This document shows, in pieces, positions 7,921 through 33,259 of a DNA stretch of 33,332 nt. The notes under the pieces are model-generated. The model was not told the origin of the DNA. It saw only the letters and a program-made list of their open reading frames with translations, and searched no databases. This DNA comes from an uncultured Clostridia bacterium (GTDB lineage: Bacteria; Bacillota; Clostridia; Oscillospirales; Oscillospiraceae). The position numbers and the translations under genes are program-made. The stretch lies in the NCBI GenBank assembly GCA_945915065.1, contig CAMEER010000013.1:1-33332 (forward strand), given 5' to 3'. Positions within the stretch are counted from its first letter, which is position 1, and each line of letters starts with the position of its first letter.

Positions 7921-10182
7921 TCAGTCCCGGACGGTGGTATCGCCCAGCCGCACGGTGATGACGGTGCCGGCAGGCACCTCCGTTCCGGCCTCCAGATCCT
8001 GACTGAACACCAGCACGGTGTTGGATTCGGAGCTGGTGGTGCCGGTAAAGCGGAGCAGCAGTCCCGCGTTGGTGGCGGCAGTGTTGGCCTCGGAGGCCGT
8101 GCGTCCCACCAGTGAGGGCACTGTACACATCTTATCCGGTTTATCCACCCCGGCATACAGAACCACAGTGGATTTGCCGGGAATAATGGCGCCGCCCACG
8201 GGGGTCTGGTCGGTGATGGTCTCGCCGTCGCCCTCCACCTTGCAGGTGAAGCCCCGCTCCTTCATGCGATCCTCGGCCTCCTGCACGGACATGCCGATGA
8301 CATTGGGCACGGTGGTGTCCACACCCATCAGCTCCTCGGCGCTGTAGCTGGGCTCAATGCCCAGATAGGGCAGGATCTCCTCCATGATATGGCTGGCGTA
8401 GGGAGCCACCATGTTGCCGCCGGACACATAGGTGCCGGTGGAGCGGCTGGGGGTATCCATGGTGATCAGCATCATGATCTGGGGATCGTCCGCCGGCGCG
8501 AAGCACAGGAAGGAGACCACCACGTCGCCGGTCTGGCCCTTATCGGCCGTACCGGTCTTGCCGCCGATGCGGTAGCCTGCCACCTGACCGTTTTTGCCGG
8601 TGCCCTTGGCCACCACGTATTCCAGGCATTCCCGCACGGTGGCGGAGGTCTCCTCGCTGATGACCTGCCGCACCGGGGTGTCGTCATGCTGCCAGATCAC
8701 GTTGCCGTCGCTGTCGGTGATCTGCTGGGCAAAGTGGGGGGTGTAGAGGTAGCCGCCGTTGACGCAGGCCGCCTGAGCCGTGATCAGCGCCAGCGGCGTC
8801 ACGGTGAAGTTCTGGCCGAAGGCGTAGCAGGCCAGATCCAGCTGGGTAAAATTGGCGTCCGCGGCAAACACGCCGGTGGCCTCGCCGCCCAGATCGATGC
8901 CGGTGGGGGACATGATGCCGAAGGAACGCATGTATTCATAGAACTTCTCCGTGCCCAGCTTCAGGCCGTAGGAGATGAAGGCCGGGTTGCAGGAGTTTCC
9001 CACGGTCTGCTCCAGGTTCTGCAGGCCGTGACCGGCCTTGCTGGAGCAGTGAATGGTCTGTCCGGAGATGGTCACCGCGCCGCTGCAGTTGACGGTGGTA
9101 TTCTTGTCAATGAGGCCCTCCTCCAGTGCCGCCGCCAGCGTCAGGATCTTGAAGGTGGAGCCCGGCTCGTAGGTGTCGTTGAGGGCCTTGTTGCGCCACT
9201 GGATCAGCTGGGCGTCGCCGGTGTCGATCTCGCCCCGCTCAATGCGCTCCAGCAGCGTCTGGTCGGTGACGGTGGAGAAGTCGTTCAGATCGTAGTTGGG
9301 ATAGGACGCCATGGCCAGGATCCCACCGTTGCGCACGTCCATCACGATACCGGTAGCGCCGTTGGCGGGGGAGAAGGCGTCGCACATGTCCTCCATGCCC
9401 TTTTGCAGGTAGTACTGCACCGTGGCCTCCAGCGTCACCTGCAGCTGGTCGCCGTCCTCCGGATCGAAGTACTGGGAGTACTCAAACAGCATGTCGTTCT
9501 GCTTGTTGTCCTTGGCGGTGACCACCAGACCGGATTTGCCCTGCAATTCCTTGTCGTACTCCGCCTCCAGCCCGTACAGACCGGTGTAGTCGGTGCCCAC
9601 GAAGCCGATGACATGGGAGGCCAGATCGCTGTAGGGGTAGTACCGCTTGGCGTCGGTGGTCAGAAACACGCCCTTGACCTTGTGGTCGTTGATGTATTGC
9701 CGCACCTCGTTGGCCACATCCTCCTCCACCCGGTACTTCAGCACCTCATACATGGAATTGGTCCTGGCCATCTTTTTCAGGATGCCCTCCTCGCTGACGT
9801 CCAGGATATCGGCCAGTGCGTCGGCCAGAGTCTCCTTGGTCCAAGTCACGGGATTCTTTTCGTCGTTCAGCGCGTCGTTGATCTCCTTGGGAGACAGAAA
9901 GATAGTCTCCGCCGTGGAGGAGATGGCCAGAATATTGCCGGAGGCGTCATAGATGGTGCCCCGGTCGGCGTTGACCACGCTGCTGCGGGTCTGCTGGCTG
10001 ACGGCCTTGGACTGCAGCTCCTCATGGCGGGTGATCTGCAGGGAATACAGCTTGAAAAACAGCACGATGAACATACCGATGCCCATAATAAGCATCAGCA
10101 CGAAGGTGCGGGTCTGGATCACCCGGTTGGCCCGGCGGATGGATTCATCCTTCCGGTTGGGATTCTGGCGGTTTTGCGGCAT
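7921..10182 (-). CDS. Class B penicillin-binding protein with two PASTA domains (SpoVD/Pbp2-type)
   Basis: Peptidoglycan DD-transpeptidase anchored in the membrane with its catalytic part outside. The 753-residue protein has a cytoplasmic N-terminus, a membrane helix at about 25-50, a PBP dimerisation domain, then the transpeptidase domain with STFK (342-345, catalytic Ser342), SCN (397-399) and KTG (542-544). Two C-terminal PASTA repeats follow at about 621-680 and 684-747. This layout is that of SpoVD (sporulation) or of division PBPs such as Pbp2x; choosing between them needs phylogeny. AGGAG lies six bases before the ATG. The gene follows the ftsL-like gene, as pbpB/spoVD does in Bacillus, and should work with the SEDS protein downstream. 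Confidence 0.94.
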   Translation of the reverse strand: MPQNRQNPNRKDESIRRANRVIQTRTFVLMLIMGIGMFIVLFFKLYSLQITRHEELQSKAVSQQTRSSVVNADRGTIYDASGNILAISSTAETIFLSPKEINDALNDEKNPVTWTKETLADALADILDVSEEGILKKMARTNSMYEVLKYRVEEDVANEVRQYINDHKVKGVFLTTDAKRYYPYSDLASHVIGFVGTDYTGLYGLEAEYDKELQGKSGLVVTAKDNKQNDMLFEYSQYFDPEDGDQLQVTLEATVQYYLQKGMEDMCDAFSPANGATGIVMDVRNGGILAMASYPNYDLNDFSTVTDQTLLERIERGEIDTGDAQLIQWRNKALNDTYEPGSTFKILTLAAALEEGLIDKNTTVNCSGAVTISGQTIHCSSKAGHGLQNLEQTVGNSCNPAFISYGLKLGTEKFYEYMRSFGIMSPTGIDLGGEATGVFAADANFTQLDLACYAFGQNFTVTPLALITAQAACVNGGYLYTPHFAQQITDSDGNVIWQHDDTPVRQVISEETSATVRECLEYVVAKGTGKNGQVAGYRIGGKTGTADKGQTGDVVVSFLCFAPADDPQIMMLITMDTPSRSTGTYVSGGNMVAPYASHIMEEILPYLGIEPSYSAEELMGVDTTVPNVIGMSVQEAEDRMKERGFTCKVEGDGETITDQTPVGGAIIPGKSTVVLYAGVDKPDKMCTVPSLVGRTASEANTAATNAGLLLRFTGTTSSESNTVLVFSQDLEAGTEVPAGTVITVRLGDTTVRD

Positions 10183-10217
10183 GGCAGACTCCTTTTGCGG
10201 CAGTATCTAAAGGCCAA

Positions 10218-10253
10218 AGCAAGGAGCAAGAAATCACCTTCTTACTCCTTGCT
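10218..10253 (-). other. Hairpin between ftsL-like gene and transpeptidase gene
   Basis: A 15-bp inverted repeat (arms 10218-10232 and 10239-10253) is fully paired in the minus-strand transcript if one G-U pair is allowed. No run of U follows, so it is unlikely to be a simple intrinsic terminator. It lies just upstream of the transpeptidase ribosome-binding site and could be an mRNA-processing or stability element, or a partial attenuator (inference). Confidence 0.55.
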
Positions 10254-10274
10254 GTTGCAATCTATACGGTGTGA

Positions 10275-10814
10275 TCAGCGGAAATATTCCCAGATGAACT
10301 GGGCGCCGCCTTTGATAGAGGAAATGGCTTTCTCCACCACGCCCGGCTCATCGCCGTAGACCACGGCGGTATCGGAGCCGCTCAGGTCGATGTACTGGAT
10401 CTGTCCCGAGGTGGGCTTGGACATGCCCGCCTCCTCGGCCGCCGCCTTGACGGTGGCCAAGTCGAAGGTCTTTTCGTATTCCGTCACCAGCGCCACGTGC
10501 TCCTCCTGCAGAGTAGTCAGCTGGTCCTTGATGGTGACCACGTGATTGGATACAACGGTCAGCTGCACATAGCCCAGCAGCAGCACCATTACCAGCGCGC
10601 ACACCAGAACGATACCGCCCACCAGCAGGGGGGAGGGACGGGTCTTGGCCTGCGCCTGAGGGTGGCGGCGGGGCTGTACCTTGGGCTGGGGCGCACCGGA
10701 ACGCTCCGGCATTTCACCGGCTTCCTCCAGCTGACGCTCACGGGCCAGCGTATCCAGATCATAGGCCAGAGAGCCATAGATCATTGTCATATTACGGCGG
10801 CGTTCGTCAGTCAT
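10275..10814 (-). CDS. ftsL: FtsL-like cell division protein
   Basis: Small bitopic protein of 179 residues, placed exactly where ftsL stands in Firmicutes, between rsmH and the class B PBP. A Pro/Arg/Gln-rich cytoplasmic region of about 60 residues leads into one membrane helix (about 63-84, rich in Val/Leu). A heptad-like extracellular segment follows (about 88-125, including IKDQLTTLQEEHVALVTEYE), the coiled coil by which FtsL pairs with DivIC/FtsB. FtsL proteins are very divergent, so the name rests on topology and position. I chose the ATG at 10814 because GGAAGG lies six bases before it. A TTG further upstream (10847) would overlap the rsmH stop and has no ribosome-binding site. Confidence 0.75.
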   Translation of the reverse strand: MTDERRRNMTMIYGSLAYDLDTLARERQLEEAGEMPERSGAPQPKVQPRRHPQAQAKTRPSPLLVGGIVLVCALVMVLLLGYVQLTVVSNHVVTIKDQLTTLQEEHVALVTEYEKTFDLATVKAAAEEAGMSKPTSGQIQYIDLSGSDTAVVYGDEPGVVEKAISSIKGGAQFIWEYFR

Positions 10815-10843
10815 GGGAAGCCTTCCTTTCTCTTTTTGGTATA

Positions 10844-11806
10844 TCAAAGCTTTTCGGCCACCCGAAGCTTAGCGCTTCTGGCCCGGGGATTCTCGGTCAA
10901 TTCTCCGTCGTCCGGCGTGATGGGCTTGCGGGAGATCAGCTTCATTTTCGGGGTCTTCCCGCATACGCATACGGGGAAATTGGGGGGACAGGTGCAGCCG
11001 GTGGCCAGCTCCTGCATGGTTTTCTTGATAATGCGGTCCTCCAGCGAGTGGAAGGAGATCACCGCCAGCCGTCCGCCTGTGTTCAGATGCTCTGCCGCGG
11101 CATTCAGCATGGGGGGCAGAGCGTCCAGCTCGCCGTTGACGGCGATGCGGATGGCCTGAAAGCTGCGCTTGGCCGGGTGCTGCTTTTCCCGCAGTGCCTG
11201 CGGCGGCATGGCGGACTTGATCACATCCACCAACTGCAGCGTGGTCTCAATGGGAGCCGTCTCCCGCGCCCGGCAGATGCCCTTGGCGATGGCGGGGGCG
11301 TAGCGTTCCTCGCCGTACTCGTACAGGATGCGCCGCAGCTCCTCATAGGGCCACCGGTTCACCACCTGATGGGCGTCCAGCGCCGCCGTGCGGTCCATCC
11401 GCATGTCCAGCGGCGCGTCGTGCATGTAGCTGAAGCCCCGCTGCGCGTCATCCAACTGGGGGGAGGACACGCCCAGATCGAACAGCATCCCGTCCGCGCC
11501 GGAGATGTTCAGCTCCTCCAATATTGCGCCGATGCGGTCAAAATTGCTGTGCACCAGCGTCACATGATCCATATAGTCCCGCAGCCGCTCCCGGGCGGCG
11601 GCGATGGCGGTCTCGTCCCGGTCAATGCCGATCAGACGGCCTGTGGTCAGCCGGCGGGCGATCTCCAGCGAGTGACCGGCCCGCCCCAGCGTTCCGTCCA
11701 CATATACGCCGTCCGGCCGGATGGCCAACGATTCCAGACATTCCTCCAGCAGCACCGGACGGTGTCCGTAGGAGAGATCCTCCTGTACGTTGTGGGTCCA
11801 TTCCAT
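10844..11806 (-). CDS. rsmH: 16S rRNA (cytosine1402-N4)-methyltransferase RsmH
   Basis: SAM-dependent methyltransferase (formerly MraW) that modifies C1402 of 16S rRNA in the decoding site. The 320-residue protein has the SAM-binding loop DGTLGRAGHS (37-46), the signature FDLGVSSPQLDDAQRGFSY, and the C-terminal motif with ISFHSLEDRIIK, all typical. Its ATG lies three bases after the mraZ stop codon, so the pair is probably translationally coupled. It is the second gene of the dcw operon, as in most bacteria. Confidence 0.97.
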   Translation of the reverse strand: MEWTHNVQEDLSYGHRPVLLEECLESLAIRPDGVYVDGTLGRAGHSLEIARRLTTGRLIGIDRDETAIAAARERLRDYMDHVTLVHSNFDRIGAILEELNISGADGMLFDLGVSSPQLDDAQRGFSYMHDAPLDMRMDRTAALDAHQVVNRWPYEELRRILYEYGEERYAPAIAKGICRARETAPIETTLQLVDVIKSAMPPQALREKQHPAKRSFQAIRIAVNGELDALPPMLNAAAEHLNTGGRLAVISFHSLEDRIIKKTMQELATGCTCPPNFPVCVCGKTPKMKLISRKPITPDDGELTENPRARSAKLRVAEKL

Positions 11807-29270: not shown

Positions 29271-29291
29271 ACAGGGAAGGGAGGGATAGGC

Positions 29292-29498
29292 ATGTTGAGC
29301 GCGGCGCTGCTGCTGATCTGCCAGAGCCTGTTTTGGCAGCTGCATCTGGCAGGCAGCAGCGGGTCATTTCCGAAGCCGCTGACAGCGGAGGAGGAACAGG
29401 CGTATCTGGAACGGTGTGCCCAGGGCGATCTGGACGCCCGCAATGTGCTGGTGGAGCGCAACCTGCGCCTTGTGGCACACATTATCAAGAACGGTTGA
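29292..29498 (+). CDS. sigK: N-terminal fragment of pro-sigma-K (interrupted sigK)
   Basis: 68 residues that match the start of the late mother-cell sigma factor pro-sigma-K: a hydrophobic pro-sequence (about 1-20), then FPKPLTAEEEQAYLERCAQG and the region 2.1 stretch ARNVLVERNLRLVAHIIK. Family similarity stops at residue 66 and a stop codon follows two codons later; a complete protein has about 230 residues. GGGAGG lies seven bases before the ATG, so the 5' end is intact. The DNA behind it is unrelated and more AT-rich. No 3' half is in the window. Either a mobile element sits in the gene, as the excisable skin elements do in B. subtilis and C. difficile, or the gene is permanently broken. 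Confidence 0.85.
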   Translation: MLSAALLLICQSLFWQLHLAGSSGSFPKPLTAEEEQAYLERCAQGDLDARNVLVERNLRLVAHIIKNG

Positions 29499-30178
29499 AG
29501 CAAACGGAAAGAGAGCCGGAAAAGCCTGTACTGATGCGGCTTTGCGGGAATTGATAAGAGATAAAGCAAAAGGAAAGACCTTCTGGCACAGCAGTGGACA
29601 AGCTGTATTCTGCGACTACAACAGGGATGTGACCATCTGCTGGGAGGTAGTTTTGTAGCGGAGATGTGAGCGGCAAGACAATCGCAGCGATAATAGGGTG
29701 TTGACAGCTTCGGACGTTGCGTGGTCTATTATCCGGTAACTGCGTTTTTCCTAATCCTGTCGAAAAACAGCCTGATATGTCTCGTCTCTGGAAGGCATCC
29801 GGTTGCAGATTTGTACGTGTAATGGCTGTACAGACGTCCTCGATTATGGCAGTATACTATCTGGTTTTCGCCGCTGGCTCCGTTTTGATCTGACTGGAAT
29901 GGTGATTACGAGTTGAGCGAGGCTCAATATTATATCCAAGCTATCATTCCGGAATTGCTGCCACAAATCTTTCTGTTTACCACAATTGTGGTGAAATATT
30001 CCTATAATCGCATAACAACCAAGCTAAAGGACAACATAGATTCTTTATAAGGTTAGGGTATTCTTCCTTTCCTGGGTGGATATAATGAACTGGGAAGATG
30101 TTCTTTGGACTTGATTTTCTCATCAATTTCGAGTAAAATAAAATTAGACTTTAGATTTCTCGGATTGAGGTGTTTTCA
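29499..30178. other. Gene-poor stretch after the sigK break
   Basis: No reading frame here is convincing. A frame crossing the break (to 29658) encodes about 55 residues of no recognised family and has no ribosome-binding site. A perfect 14-bp palindrome, ACCACAATTGTGGT, lies at 29979-29992. The right end holds the promoter of the ATPase gene. The rest looks like decayed sequence. Confidence 0.55.
30111..30139 (+). promoter_or_regulatory. Promoter of the plus-strand AAA ATPase gene
   Basis: TTGATT (30111-30116), 17-bp spacer, TAAAAT (30134-30139). Start near 30146, about 33 nt before the TTG start codon. Confidence 0.6.
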
Positions 30179-31405
30179 TTGTATATTGAGCGACACTTGG
30201 AGGAGCAGATTCTGAACGCTTCTCAGTATTACCCTGTTGTCATGGTCTGCGGTCAGCGGCAGGTCGGCAAATCAACCATGCTGAACCACATCCGTGAGCC
30301 GGAGCGACGCTATGTCACTCTGGATGACGGCAACGCCCGCCGCCTGGCCTCTACCGACCCTGCGCTTTTCTTTGAGACTTACGGATATCCGCTTCTTATT
30401 GATGAGTTTCAGCGTGTTCCGTCCATCCTGCTTGAGATGAAGAAAATCGTTGACCAGAAAGCCCTCGACGGCGAGGATAACAACGGAATGTTTTGGCTGA
30501 CCGGATCGCAGAAGTTCAAGATGATGCAGGATGTTTCTGAGTCCCTGGCAGGACGGATCGCTATCTTTGATATGGCAAGCCTTTCTACTGCGGAGATCGA
30601 GGAGCGTCCGGCCACCTTATTTCATCCTGACCTGGCATCCATTCGTGAGCGGCTGAAATACAGCAAGCCCAAAAACATTCATCAGGTCTATGAGGATATT
30701 TTCCGTGGCGGAATGCCGAAACTTCGCGTCACAGATATTGACCGTGACCGTTTCTACATGGACTATATCAACACTTACATTGAGCGTGACATCAAGGATT
30801 TGGCTCAGGTCGGCAAGCTGAACGAGTTTTACGATTTCCTTGTCTATATGGCGGCACGAACCGGGCAGGAACTGAAATATGATGAGATTGCCGGCGCGAT
30901 TGGCATCTCCGCACCAACGGCAAAGGCATGGGTCACGATTCTGGAGCGTTCAGGCGTAATCTTTATCCTTCATCCCTATTACTCCAACATCACCAAGCGC
31001 CTGGTGAAAACCCCAAAGGTATATTTCATGGATACTGGCCTTGCTGCTTATCTCTGCCGGTGGCCCAGCGCAGAGACCCTGGAGAACGGAGCAATGGACG
31101 GAGCGTTCTTCGAGACCTATGTGGTGTCGGAGATCGTCAAAAGCTACTACAATGCAGGCAAACCTGTTGACCTGTTCTACTATCGTGATATCGACAAGAA
31201 GGAAATCGACCTTTTGATCGTTGAGGGAGACAAAATGTATCCCATCGAAATCAAAAAGGGCAAGGAGCCTTCCAAACCGGACAAAAATTTCGGTGTTCTC
31301 CAGCAGTTTAAAATGGATGTTCAGCCTGGTATTATCCTCTGCATGAGCGATGAGCTCATTCCATACAACCGGGGGTCCTGGTACTGTCCAGTATCTGTTC
31401 TATAA
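30179..31405 (+). CDS. AAA family ATPase with DUF4143 domain
   Basis: Cytosolic P-loop ATPase of 408 residues. Walker A GQRQVGKS (25-32), Walker B LLIDEFQ with Asp75-Glu76, a sensor-like WLTGSQKF, a winged-helix-like segment around IAGAIGISAPTAKAWV, and a C-terminal DUF4143 domain ending in a nuclease-like strand pattern (EIDLLIVEGDKMYPIEIKKG) that resembles the PD-(D/E)XK fold. The family is widespread on mobile DNA and of unknown function. A TTG at 30179 is preferred because GAGGTG lies six bases upstream; a GTG at 30170 falls inside that ribosome-binding site. It is single-gene, with promoter and terminator. Confidence 0.9.
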   Translation: MYIERHLEEQILNASQYYPVVMVCGQRQVGKSTMLNHIREPERRYVTLDDGNARRLASTDPALFFETYGYPLLIDEFQRVPSILLEMKKIVDQKALDGEDNNGMFWLTGSQKFKMMQDVSESLAGRIAIFDMASLSTAEIEERPATLFHPDLASIRERLKYSKPKNIHQVYEDIFRGGMPKLRVTDIDRDRFYMDYINTYIERDIKDLAQVGKLNEFYDFLVYMAARTGQELKYDEIAGAIGISAPTAKAWVTILERSGVIFILHPYYSNITKRLVKTPKVYFMDTGLAAYLCRWPSAETLENGAMDGAFFETYVVSEIVKSYYNAGKPVDLFYYRDIDKKEIDLLIVEGDKMYPIEIKKGKEPSKPDKNFGVLQQFKMDVQPGIILCMSDELIPYNRGSWYCPVSVL

Positions 31406-31852: not shown

Positions 31853-33145
31853 TTATAGCAGGTCTTTCGTTTTCCGGGCGAGGTAAAGCGGCAGGTTGGT
31901 AATACTGCCATCTTTCCGATAGCCGCGTTTGGAAAAGCGAAGCGCATGATCCGGCTGATGCTCTGTGATGTACCGCTTAAACGAAGGCGCAGACTTGTCT
32001 TCGCCGCCTTTGGCTTCGATGGGGATGATCTCCCTGCCGCATTGAAGCACAAAGTCGATCTCGCTGTTCTTATCGGCGTAATAGCGCGGTTCGACTTCAA
32101 ACTGTCCGCGAAGCTGCTGCAAAACATAGTTCTCCGTCAGCGGCCCCTTGAACTGGTAATCCGTTTTCAAGAGGATCGCGCTGTTGTCAATGCCTGCCAT
32201 GTGCTTGAGAAGGCCGGTATCGAAAACAAACAGCTTGAACTGATCCAGCTTGTCGAATGCGGGCAGTGGATGCTCCATTTTCGAGACATTGTAAACACGA
32301 TTGAGTATTCCGGCTGATACAAGCCATTCAATCGCTTCTTCAAAATCGCGGGCTCTGCCGCCTTCACGGACGGCGCCGTACATGAACTTCTCGTTCGGCT
32401 TGGCAAGCTGGGCAACGATGCTGCGGAAAACCATAAGGATGCGTCCACTGTTGACCTTGCCGTTGTGTTTGGAAAAGTCATTCTCATATACTTCGATCAA
32501 TTCTCTCTGTATCTGAGAAACCTTTGCAGGATCTTTGTATTTTATCCAGGAGGCGACACATTCCGGCATACCGCCGATGATGAGATAGTAGTTGTACGCC
32601 TCAAGCAGGCGGTTATGAAAGATGTCTTCGATCTGCTGTCCCTTCCGGATGTTCTCATAGTAAGCGAACAAAGCGGGATCGGTTGCATCAAGAAACTCGT
32701 CAAAGGTGAGCGGACAGATATCAAGAAGATTGACCATGCCTACTGGATAGGACTTCGGTTCTGCCAGAAGTGTTCCCAACAGACTGCCTGCTGCAATGAC
32801 ATGATATTCGTTTGCTTTCTCCCTGAAGTATTTGAGGGTGTTCAGTGCCTCGGGACATTCCTGGATCTCATCGAAGATGACCAGTGTTTTACCCGGCTGA
32901 ATCTTTTCCCCGCCGATCATGGAAAGAAGCTCAATGATGCGCTGAGGATTCTTGTTCGTCTCGAAGATAGATTTCAACTCATCTTCTTCATCAAAGTTGA
33001 AATAGGCGAAGCTGTCATAGCAGTTTCGTCCGAACTCCTTCATCAGCCAAGTCTTGCCAACCTGTCTTGCGCCTTTCAGCACCATCGGCTTGCGCTCTTC
33101 ACTGGACTTCCAGTTTATCAAATCCTGAATTGCATTGCGCTTCAA
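31853..33145 (-). CDS. AAA family ATPase with DUF4143 domain (second, divergent type)
   Basis: 430 residues from TTG at 33145. Walker A GARQVGKT (25-32), Walker B LVIFDEIQ with Asp92-Glu93, AAGSLLG as sensor region, then a DUF4143 part ending in the nuclease-like pattern NSEIDFVLQCGREIIPIEAK. It shares architecture with the other ATPase in this island but little direct sequence identity, so it is not a recent duplicate. Start choice is uncertain: TTG fits where relatives begin (KRNAIQDLINWK) but its AGGA is 11 bases away; GTG codons at 33154 and 33187 are alternatives. Three direct repeats lie upstream. Confidence 0.9.
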   Translation of the reverse strand: MKRNAIQDLINWKSSEERKPMVLKGARQVGKTWLMKEFGRNCYDSFAYFNFDEEDELKSIFETNKNPQRIIELLSMIGGEKIQPGKTLVIFDEIQECPEALNTLKYFREKANEYHVIAAGSLLGTLLAEPKSYPVGMVNLLDICPLTFDEFLDATDPALFAYYENIRKGQQIEDIFHNRLLEAYNYYLIIGGMPECVASWIKYKDPAKVSQIQRELIEVYENDFSKHNGKVNSGRILMVFRSIVAQLAKPNEKFMYGAVREGGRARDFEEAIEWLVSAGILNRVYNVSKMEHPLPAFDKLDQFKLFVFDTGLLKHMAGIDNSAILLKTDYQFKGPLTENYVLQQLRGQFEVEPRYYADKNSEIDFVLQCGREIIPIEAKGGEDKSAPSFKRYITEHQPDHALRFSKRGYRKDGSITNLPLYLARKTKDLL

Positions 33146-33184
33146 GGGAATCACCGTCCTTTTGAGTGGTCGATGATAGGATAG

Positions 33185-33259
33185 CACATTTTTCCGTCAT
33201 TTTCAACGATTATTAAACACATTTTTCTGACATATTCAGACATGGAAAACACATTTTTC
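33185..33259. repeat. Three direct repeats CACATTTTTC at 32-33 bp spacing
   Basis: CACATTTTTC occurs at 33185-33194, 33218-33227 and 33250-33259, starting 33 and 32 bp apart, about three helical turns. On the minus strand they read GAAAAATGTG and lie directly upstream of the second ATPase gene, so they could be operator or iteron-like sites. Confidence 0.6.

Follow-up and report, generated by a model that had tools for sequence, protein, structure and literature searches.

Skin-like elements at three recurrent positions of sigK in Oscillospiraceae

The sigK gene of the uncultured Oscillospiraceae bacterium studied here is, as read from its assembled DNA, broken at three fixed sites, referred to below as S1, S2 and S3, and so into four pieces, of which three were recovered. 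These breakpoints recur among relatives, S1 after codon 66 (between HIIK and KYY), S2 at about codon 112 (between CIE and NEIL) and S3 at about codon 213 (between SYVSR and IEK). We consider it likely that three independent skin-like elements split the gene, that each is removed by a recombinase of its own, and that intact sigK results after all of them have left. The stretch of DNA from which the analysis started (the window, 33,332 bases) is the complete contig C13 of the assembly G000 (81 contigs, 81% complete, 1.71 Mb), and the remainder of sigK therefore had to be sought on other contigs.

Pieces of sigK in the window and its assembly

The NCBIfam model spore_sigmaK matches the 5′ piece of sigK in the window over residues 3–66 (E 2.3e-18), the match to sigE being weaker (E 7.8e-12), and the likeness to the family stops at codon 66 (29489). 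The first-pass annotation, which had described an intact ribosome-binding site and an abrupt end of family similarity near 29491, is borne out on both points, the motif GGAGGGA being read directly upstream of the ATG. The final codons of the 68-codon open reading frame in the window are element DNA, with the frame stop three codons past codon 66, where intact sigK genes of the same genus mostly continue with KYYTQ. The arm that follows codon 66 is like those found at the same codon in relatives (Table 1), which confirms the proposed interruption of the sigK coding sequence after about 66 codons. A chance end of similarity was rejected on the scores of a weight matrix built from the 24 nt after codon 66 in 39 other loci: the window scores 24.4 bits at 29490 and slightly more at a second arm copy, the next position reaches 13.1 bits, and the best scores on five shuffled windows are 8.3–17.9. 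Furthermore, the first 113 nt of the element are 77% identical to the left end of locus L123, and the first 160 nt are 73% identical to that of L165.

Table 1 Features of the window
Feature	Position	Strand	Basis
GGAGGGA, likely ribosome-binding site for sigK piece 1	29280..29286	+	direct reading
sigK piece 1, residues 1–66	29292..29489	+	family match
S1 attL: sigK half CACATTATCAAG, then element arm AACGGTTGAAGCAAACGGAAAG	29478..29511	+	similar arm in G422, G348, G143, G376, L123, L165
Left-end open frame, homologous to the predicted C-terminal circle tail of the S1 recombinase (TVEANGKRAGKACTDAALRELIRDKAKGKTFWHSSGQAVFCDYNRDVTICWEVVL)	29491..29658	+	pN/pS, homology
Second copy of the S1 arm motif inside the element	29556..29579	+	top matrix match, 24.8 bits
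Cargo: AAA_14 + DUF4143 ATPase	30170..31405	+	
Cargo: second AAA_14 + DUF4143 ATPase	31853..33187	-	

The second arm copy lies 66 bases into the element, beyond an inverted repeat whose folding is stronger in G422, L165 and L123, and is possibly an accessory binding site. An ATPase that looks similar, by eye, to those of the window is held by the S1 element of Anaeromassilibacillus sp. An200 (L165:6025-7422).

Later parts of sigK are present on two further contigs, each with a recombinase. Contig C8 encodes residues ~109–213 (NEILMYF...SYVSR; C8:245-559) directly after a 571-aa serine recombinase with Resolvase, Recombinase and zinc-ribbon domains; read toward the first base of the contig, the order is recombinase, sigK piece and a second break ~245 bases from the contig end. 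Contig C3 opens within a serine recombinase, which is followed immediately, near 1600, by IEKKALGKLEQALREYL and a stop, i.e., the sigK C-terminus (last 17 residues). Pieces 3 and 4 join in frame in silico. Residues 67–108 were not found in the G000 assembly, and neither was an S1-type recombinase, the best matches having identities of only 24–27%. At first pass a search to the right of the window had been proposed for the 3′ part of the gene and a large serine recombinase; with the window ending where its contig ends, the later sigK parts and two recombinases were found on other contigs. A second intact sigK elsewhere in the assembly, which had been considered from the outset, was rejected, since the remaining TIGR02846 matches in the family search are sigE, sigG, sigF, sigH and sigA.

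Contigs C13, C8 and C3 are physically unlinked, and the triple break in G000 consequently rests on unlinked contigs. The assignment of C3 as a sigK locus is supported by its DNA polymerase IV gene, relatives of which are present at the sigK locus in 4 of the 29 genomes compared (L015, L017, L021, L023); the DNA upstream of sigK in the window has a flank match in one of the 29 relative loci, which is weak. An assembly of 81 contigs, in which C8 and C3 end close to sigK pieces, might be suspected of containing chimeric contigs that make apparent breaks. However, 73 of 80 loci from other assemblies show the S1 junction next to a recombinase, including records that bear strain names (An200, An82 and PC13, presumably cultured isolates), and S2 and S3 are present in the single-contig genome G139. 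An assembly or binning artefact was rejected on the recurrence of the same junctions, and we regard it as highly improbable.

Recurrence of the three sites and their recombinases

In a sample of 32 genomes of the genus, 23 carry an intact sigK that was checked, and G020 and G027 are intact by length only. Five have a split gene: G000 (S1, S2, S3), G021 (S1, S2), G009 (S2), G015 (S2, 3′ side only) and G008 (S3). A search with the N-terminal part gave no sigK match in G001 and G019, for which the best matches to the middle piece are sigE. From a draw of 400 genomes of the family, 320 were matched by the N-terminal query, and among 150 matches listed there are 16 frames of 70–87 aa, that of the window included; 27 genomes were then searched with the rest of sigK. 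This yielded S1 elements whose two sides lie on the same contig in G348, G143, G448, G424, G291, G295 and G242, S2 elements in G139, G192, G397 and G210, and a separate middle piece of sigK in G422, G214 and G376.

Several sites can be occupied in the same gene, where the first-pass annotation had noted a single break. In An200 a single contig carries piece 1, an S1 element, piece 2, an S2 element, piece 3 and the left arm of S3, and the last sigK piece lies behind an S3 recombinase on another contig, so that all three sites are occupied. Both S2 and S3 are occupied in G139, with piece 4 near 1,167,004, and S1 and S3 in G242 and G448.

A scan of the GTDB collection with an alignment of the S1 recombinases gave 394 relatives, labelled mostly as Oscillospiraceae or other Clostridia, with few others, e.g., Brachyspira (L193). 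Among the best 80 of the 394, which were kept, 75 loci include a piece of sigK, which in 73 adjoins the recombinase; the comparison of the locus in related genomes that had been suggested thus finds the same S1 break again and again. Beyond S1, the next piece of sigK runs to an S2-type break in 15 of the best 80 loci and as far as an S3-type break in 7 of the 80. The recombinase is located at the right end of the element in 41 loci and at the left end in 32, seven of the best 80 fitting neither rule, from which it follows that S1 elements sit in both orientations at one site. An additional 33 relatives of the S1 recombinase were found among viral contigs, three of which were looked at: L237 carries residues 66–124 of sigK next to the recombinase gene, L238 is truncated, and L239 lacks sigK.

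The attachment arms are inverted pairs at each of the sites. The right junctions of S1 in relatives hold the inverted partner of the left arm, e.g., ...CTTTTGCTATCTCCGTTAAAA followed across the junction by AAGTAC in G143; the S2 arms are GAGAATGCTATCCTATC and GGAGAGGATAGCGAA, and the S3 arms CCGCCGCTGTTATTGTAAG and CTTACAATAGGCGCGGCGG. The AA of codon 66 is common to the left and right S1 flanks, and ATGTATCCCGC to both S3 flanks of G000. Hence, att half-sites are present that have inverted arms and share a short core, S1 of G000 being represented by the left side in the window, and the S1 exchange point probably lies near codon 66. The core of the B. subtilis skin element is AATGA. The codons at S2 contain AATGA, and we take S2 to be the B. 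subtilis skin site; S1, at codon 66, is distinct from it, which supports the earlier suggestion of a skin-like element with a different insertion point.

In a tree of 23 recombinases, those of the three sites form separate groups (S1, n = 9, support 89/88; S2, n = 8, 100/99; S3, n = 3, 100/99), with three sequences outside these groups and a warning of long branches from the tree program. The S2 and S3 elements of G000 each encode a recombinase of their own at one end, as do the S1 elements in the 73 relative loci. Judged by sequence, each site therefore has a large serine recombinase family of its own, encoded at one end of the element. A sigmaE-like promoter pattern matched 11 of 75 S1 recombinases versus 14 of 810 other open reading frames (shuffling: 0.6 expected, maximum 5); 9 of the 11 matches share one related sequence, and a strict pattern gave 0 of 75. 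Among S2 and S3 recombinases, 1 of 8 matched.

The elements themselves vary in size and content. The S1 elements contained in a single contig measure about 5 to 56 kb. A complete S3 element of ~10 kb in G008 (L083:3109-13266, contig C6) encodes three small secreted-looking proteins, one matching Peptidase_M73/camelysin and two without a Pfam match, and a 923-aa von Willebrand A-domain protein adjoining the recombinase; the S3 element of G242 (C1:260192-361878) is apparently ~100 kb long. Over 1.9 kb the S2 recombinase region of G000 (L009:477-2371) shares 89% identity with its counterpart in G214 (L106), which belongs to another genus, and the recombinase gene alone is 90% identical in DNA and 95% in protein. 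A gene 90% identical across two genera indicates that the elements move, and the match points to recent horizontal movement of the S2 recombinase region between the two genera.

Variable cargo and size at one site, the DUF4143 ATPases of the window, the surface-type proteins at S3 of G008, the ~100-kb element at S3 of G242 and the S2 recombinase gene of 90% DNA identity between two genera would all suit integrative elements or prophages of the ordinary sort, for which sigK is a safe place to insert, in which case excision would only permit sporulation and add no regulation. This reading, which we hold to be possible but somewhat doubtful, is nevertheless compatible with removal of three skin-like elements by their own recombinases, the DNA mechanism being the same; against a lack of regulation, deletion of the skin element in C. 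difficile leads to premature sigK activity, according to the available text of PMC5025042.

Attachment sites inside the recombinase gene

New here is the finding that the S1 and S2 attachment sites lie inside the recombinase gene, with the stop codon at or beyond the sigK junction. This holds for the S1 recombinase in 73 of 73 loci (41/41 and 32/32 in the two orientations), the stop being only 2–5 nt past the junction in 25 of the 32 loci of left-end orientation, and the S2 recombinase frame crosses the junction at 9 of 9 right ends. As the S1 and S2 recombinase frames cross the attachment site, the integrated recombinase ends inside sigK DNA. For S3, the stop lies beyond the junction in 1 of 6 cases (G000 only), where the predicted circle would add about four residues by hand reading; the other five stop 15–94 nt before the junction core.

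In the predicted circle, made in silico by linking the right end with the left arm, the frame of the S1 and S2 recombinases runs on. Among 13 S1 loci with both ends read, six gain a tail of 28–61 residues (L165, 59; L123, 55; L139, 33; L142, 28; L143, 50; L171, 61), the tail of L171 not being visibly like the others, and in seven the tail is short or absent (0–17 residues). The first ~168 bases of the element in the window encode the same tail as L165 and L123. Over the three pairs that these three sequences provide, the pN/pS of the tail frame is 0.35, 0.43 and 0.53 versus 0.78–1.83 in other frames; the pairs that include the window have 0.35 and 0.43 versus 0.79–1.83 in the other two frames. 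On these ratios the S1 tail is under purifying selection in some elements. In L125 (Flintibacter muris, 10001-11764) an S1-type recombinase and the full tail form one frame, and in L190 a recombinase and a less similar tail do so, with no sigK in the fetched flanks of either; this fusion makes the tail look like the protein's natural end, and the attachment site within the L125 gene looks uncut.

The S2 circle tail is open throughout the 400 nt read, about 130 residues, in 4 of 7 elements with both of their own ends read (G139, G036, G214, G422), and short in the other three (G192, G210 and L165, gaining 16–22 residues). Tails read to their stop (G422, G214, L177, G139) comprise 201–208 residues with two helix-turn-helix domains each (in G422, HTH_3 at E 7e-16). 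The tail frame of G422 closes just upstream of the junction, with its first ATG at codon 35 and GTG codons earlier, and to judge from this its translation in the integrated state is unlikely; those of G214 and L177 remain open upstream, with start codons, and might be translated in that state. Relatives of the S2 tail were not found in the viral contigs, plasmids and phages searched.

The swap of tails is evident in the arrangement of the DNA. As to its effect, we give even credence to a built-in switch, whereby integration would exchange the recombinase C-terminus for a stop from sigK and excision would restore the tail, which may favour integration from the circle. On the same evenly weighted reading, the tail-less integrated enzyme would be suited to developmental excision, and up to three elements would amount to a set of rearrangements in one cell. 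A recombinase C-terminus that changes with integration would lend itself as a model of how serine integrases control directionality.

Excision, decay and comparison with known systems

That the elements excise in this bacterium, at a given time and in a given cell type, we infer from the analogy with the mother-cell excision described for B. subtilis and C. difficile (available text of PMC6957869 and PMC5025042). Each recombinase, probably with a directionality factor, would join its attL and attR during sporulation; the elements would depart as circles in the mother cell, where intact sigK would be rebuilt, and the forespore would retain the split gene. SigK would be made only once all elements had left. 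The recombinase would differ in form between the integrated and the circular state, a difference that may contribute to determining which way recombination runs.

Excision that restores the frame was examined in silico, in relatives and for pieces 3 and 4 of G000. In the relatives all 14 joins fit with no codon missing or doubled (S1, 6/6; S2, 4/4; S3, 1/1; S1 and S2 together, 3/3), the joins having been placed at the codon boundary by homology, so that the frame itself is given by construction. Small indels relative to the reference occur elsewhere in some joined frames. The joined frames of G448, G242 and An200 end just after SYVSR, i.e., at the S3 break, and that of G139 continues past it.

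The median pN/pS of the G000 pieces versus 22 intact genes of the genus is 0.28 for piece 1 (intact–intact median 0.31) and 0.37 for piece 3 (0.34), values which are only supportive since dS is near saturation in this comparison. Pairs of S1-split genes gave 0.09 (G291–G242, 207 codons) and 0.33 (G348–G448, 211 codons). None of six piece-1 pairs of split genes was used; two gave 0.22 and 0.52, and four gave 1.06–1.36, which are taken as out of register because the alignment was gapless.

A full-length spoIVA above the family cut-off is present in 7 of 10 genomes (G000, An200, G139, G242, G214, G021 and G008), and in G448 spoIVA is found as fragments at contig ends. The G000 assembly contains sigE above the cut-off and best matches to sigF, sigG and sigH. 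No SpoIVA match was found in G007, a member of the genus with two contigs, 100% completeness and an intact sigK. In G422 spoIVA is itself split: residues 2–404 (L234, C13:52191-53399) and 399–492 (L233, C226:51185-51466) are found on two separate contigs. A serine recombinase of 551 aa, which shares 49% identity with the S1 type, overlaps the beginning of the 3′ piece, and the arrangement has the look of a spoIVA-intervening element.

Piece 2 of sigK in G021 (L084:8142-8255, contig C18) begins at ISIGTIG, 11 codons past the S1 break. By eye its neighbours are metabolic-type genes; on the right it is bordered by an S2-type arm, and ~2.8 kb further on lies a recombinase that is placed as sister to the S1 group. 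A late-starting piece in such chromosome-like surroundings looks like decay.

Permanent disruption of sigK was initially put forward as an equally possible outcome. On such a reading sporulation would be in the course of being lost and sigK would be a dead landing site that collects elements. What stands of this is that residues 67–108 and an S1-type recombinase are missing from the 81%-complete assembly; the piece of G021 without 11 codons at its left edge, and G001 and G019, where the N-terminal search finds no sigK and the middle-piece matches are sigE, also fit such a loss. Against it, the frames of the pieces recovered from G000 are open and conserved, with pN/pS values like those of sigK, all 14 joins in relatives fit without lost codons, and spoIVA, sigE, sigF, sigG and sigH are in the assembly. 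In addition, exact junctions across genera would hardly be expected of a dead gene. We therefore regard permanent loss as unlikely and the claim of equal possibility as weakened.

Assuming three removable skin-like elements, the question is raised of whether several recombinases have to work in the same mother cell, in what order they would act and whether this gates spore formation. On the practical side, genomes of this kind would be misjudged by a sporulation predictor that counts sigK as missing or broken. Among the open-licence PMC papers listed by the searches, judged by titles and the starts of abstracts, there was no work on multiply interrupted sigK, no survey of skin elements in Oscillospiraceae and none on a serine recombinase gene extending across its own att site. 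The available text of PMC5025042 calls the skin element an exception in clostridia; here, split sigK recurs across many genera of one family, the breaks falling at three constant positions, each matched by a recombinase family, and a single gene can hold as many as three elements.

The known systems share parts of this arrangement. The available text on C. difficile (PMC5025042) describes a skin element with the recombinase CD1231 and the directionality factor CD1234, in which, as here, the recombinase gene is directly upstream of the 3′ part of sigK and the att half-sites have inverted repeats; the element is single, and no change of the recombinase C-terminus is mentioned in that text. The sigK gene also serves as a phage integration site in C. 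tetani, C. perfringens (phiS63) and Alicyclobacillus (MMB025), but these prophages are described as single insertions in the portions available of PMC5553647 and PMC13141910, unlike the multiply split genes reported here. The gin element in gerE of Bacillus cereus, a non-phage intervening element with several serine recombinases and excision at sporulation, differs in the gene and in having a single site (PMC5595907, available text). Among the systems read about, the nearest analogue of the tail swap is mycobacteriophage BPs, in which attP lies within a gene and integration shortens the C-terminus of the repressor (integration-dependent immunity; PMC4557955, available text); there it is the repressor that is altered, whereas in the S1 and S2 elements it is the recombinase itself, with a new stop from a host developmental gene. 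The skin element of B. subtilis lies in sigK, carries the large serine recombinase SpoIVCA and the directionality factor Skr, and is excised in the mother cell to rebuild the gene (PMC6957869, available text). The elements described here likewise lie inside sigK with large serine recombinases of their own, but differ in that S1 and S3 are other sites, that up to three elements occupy one gene, and that their recombinases form three separate groups.
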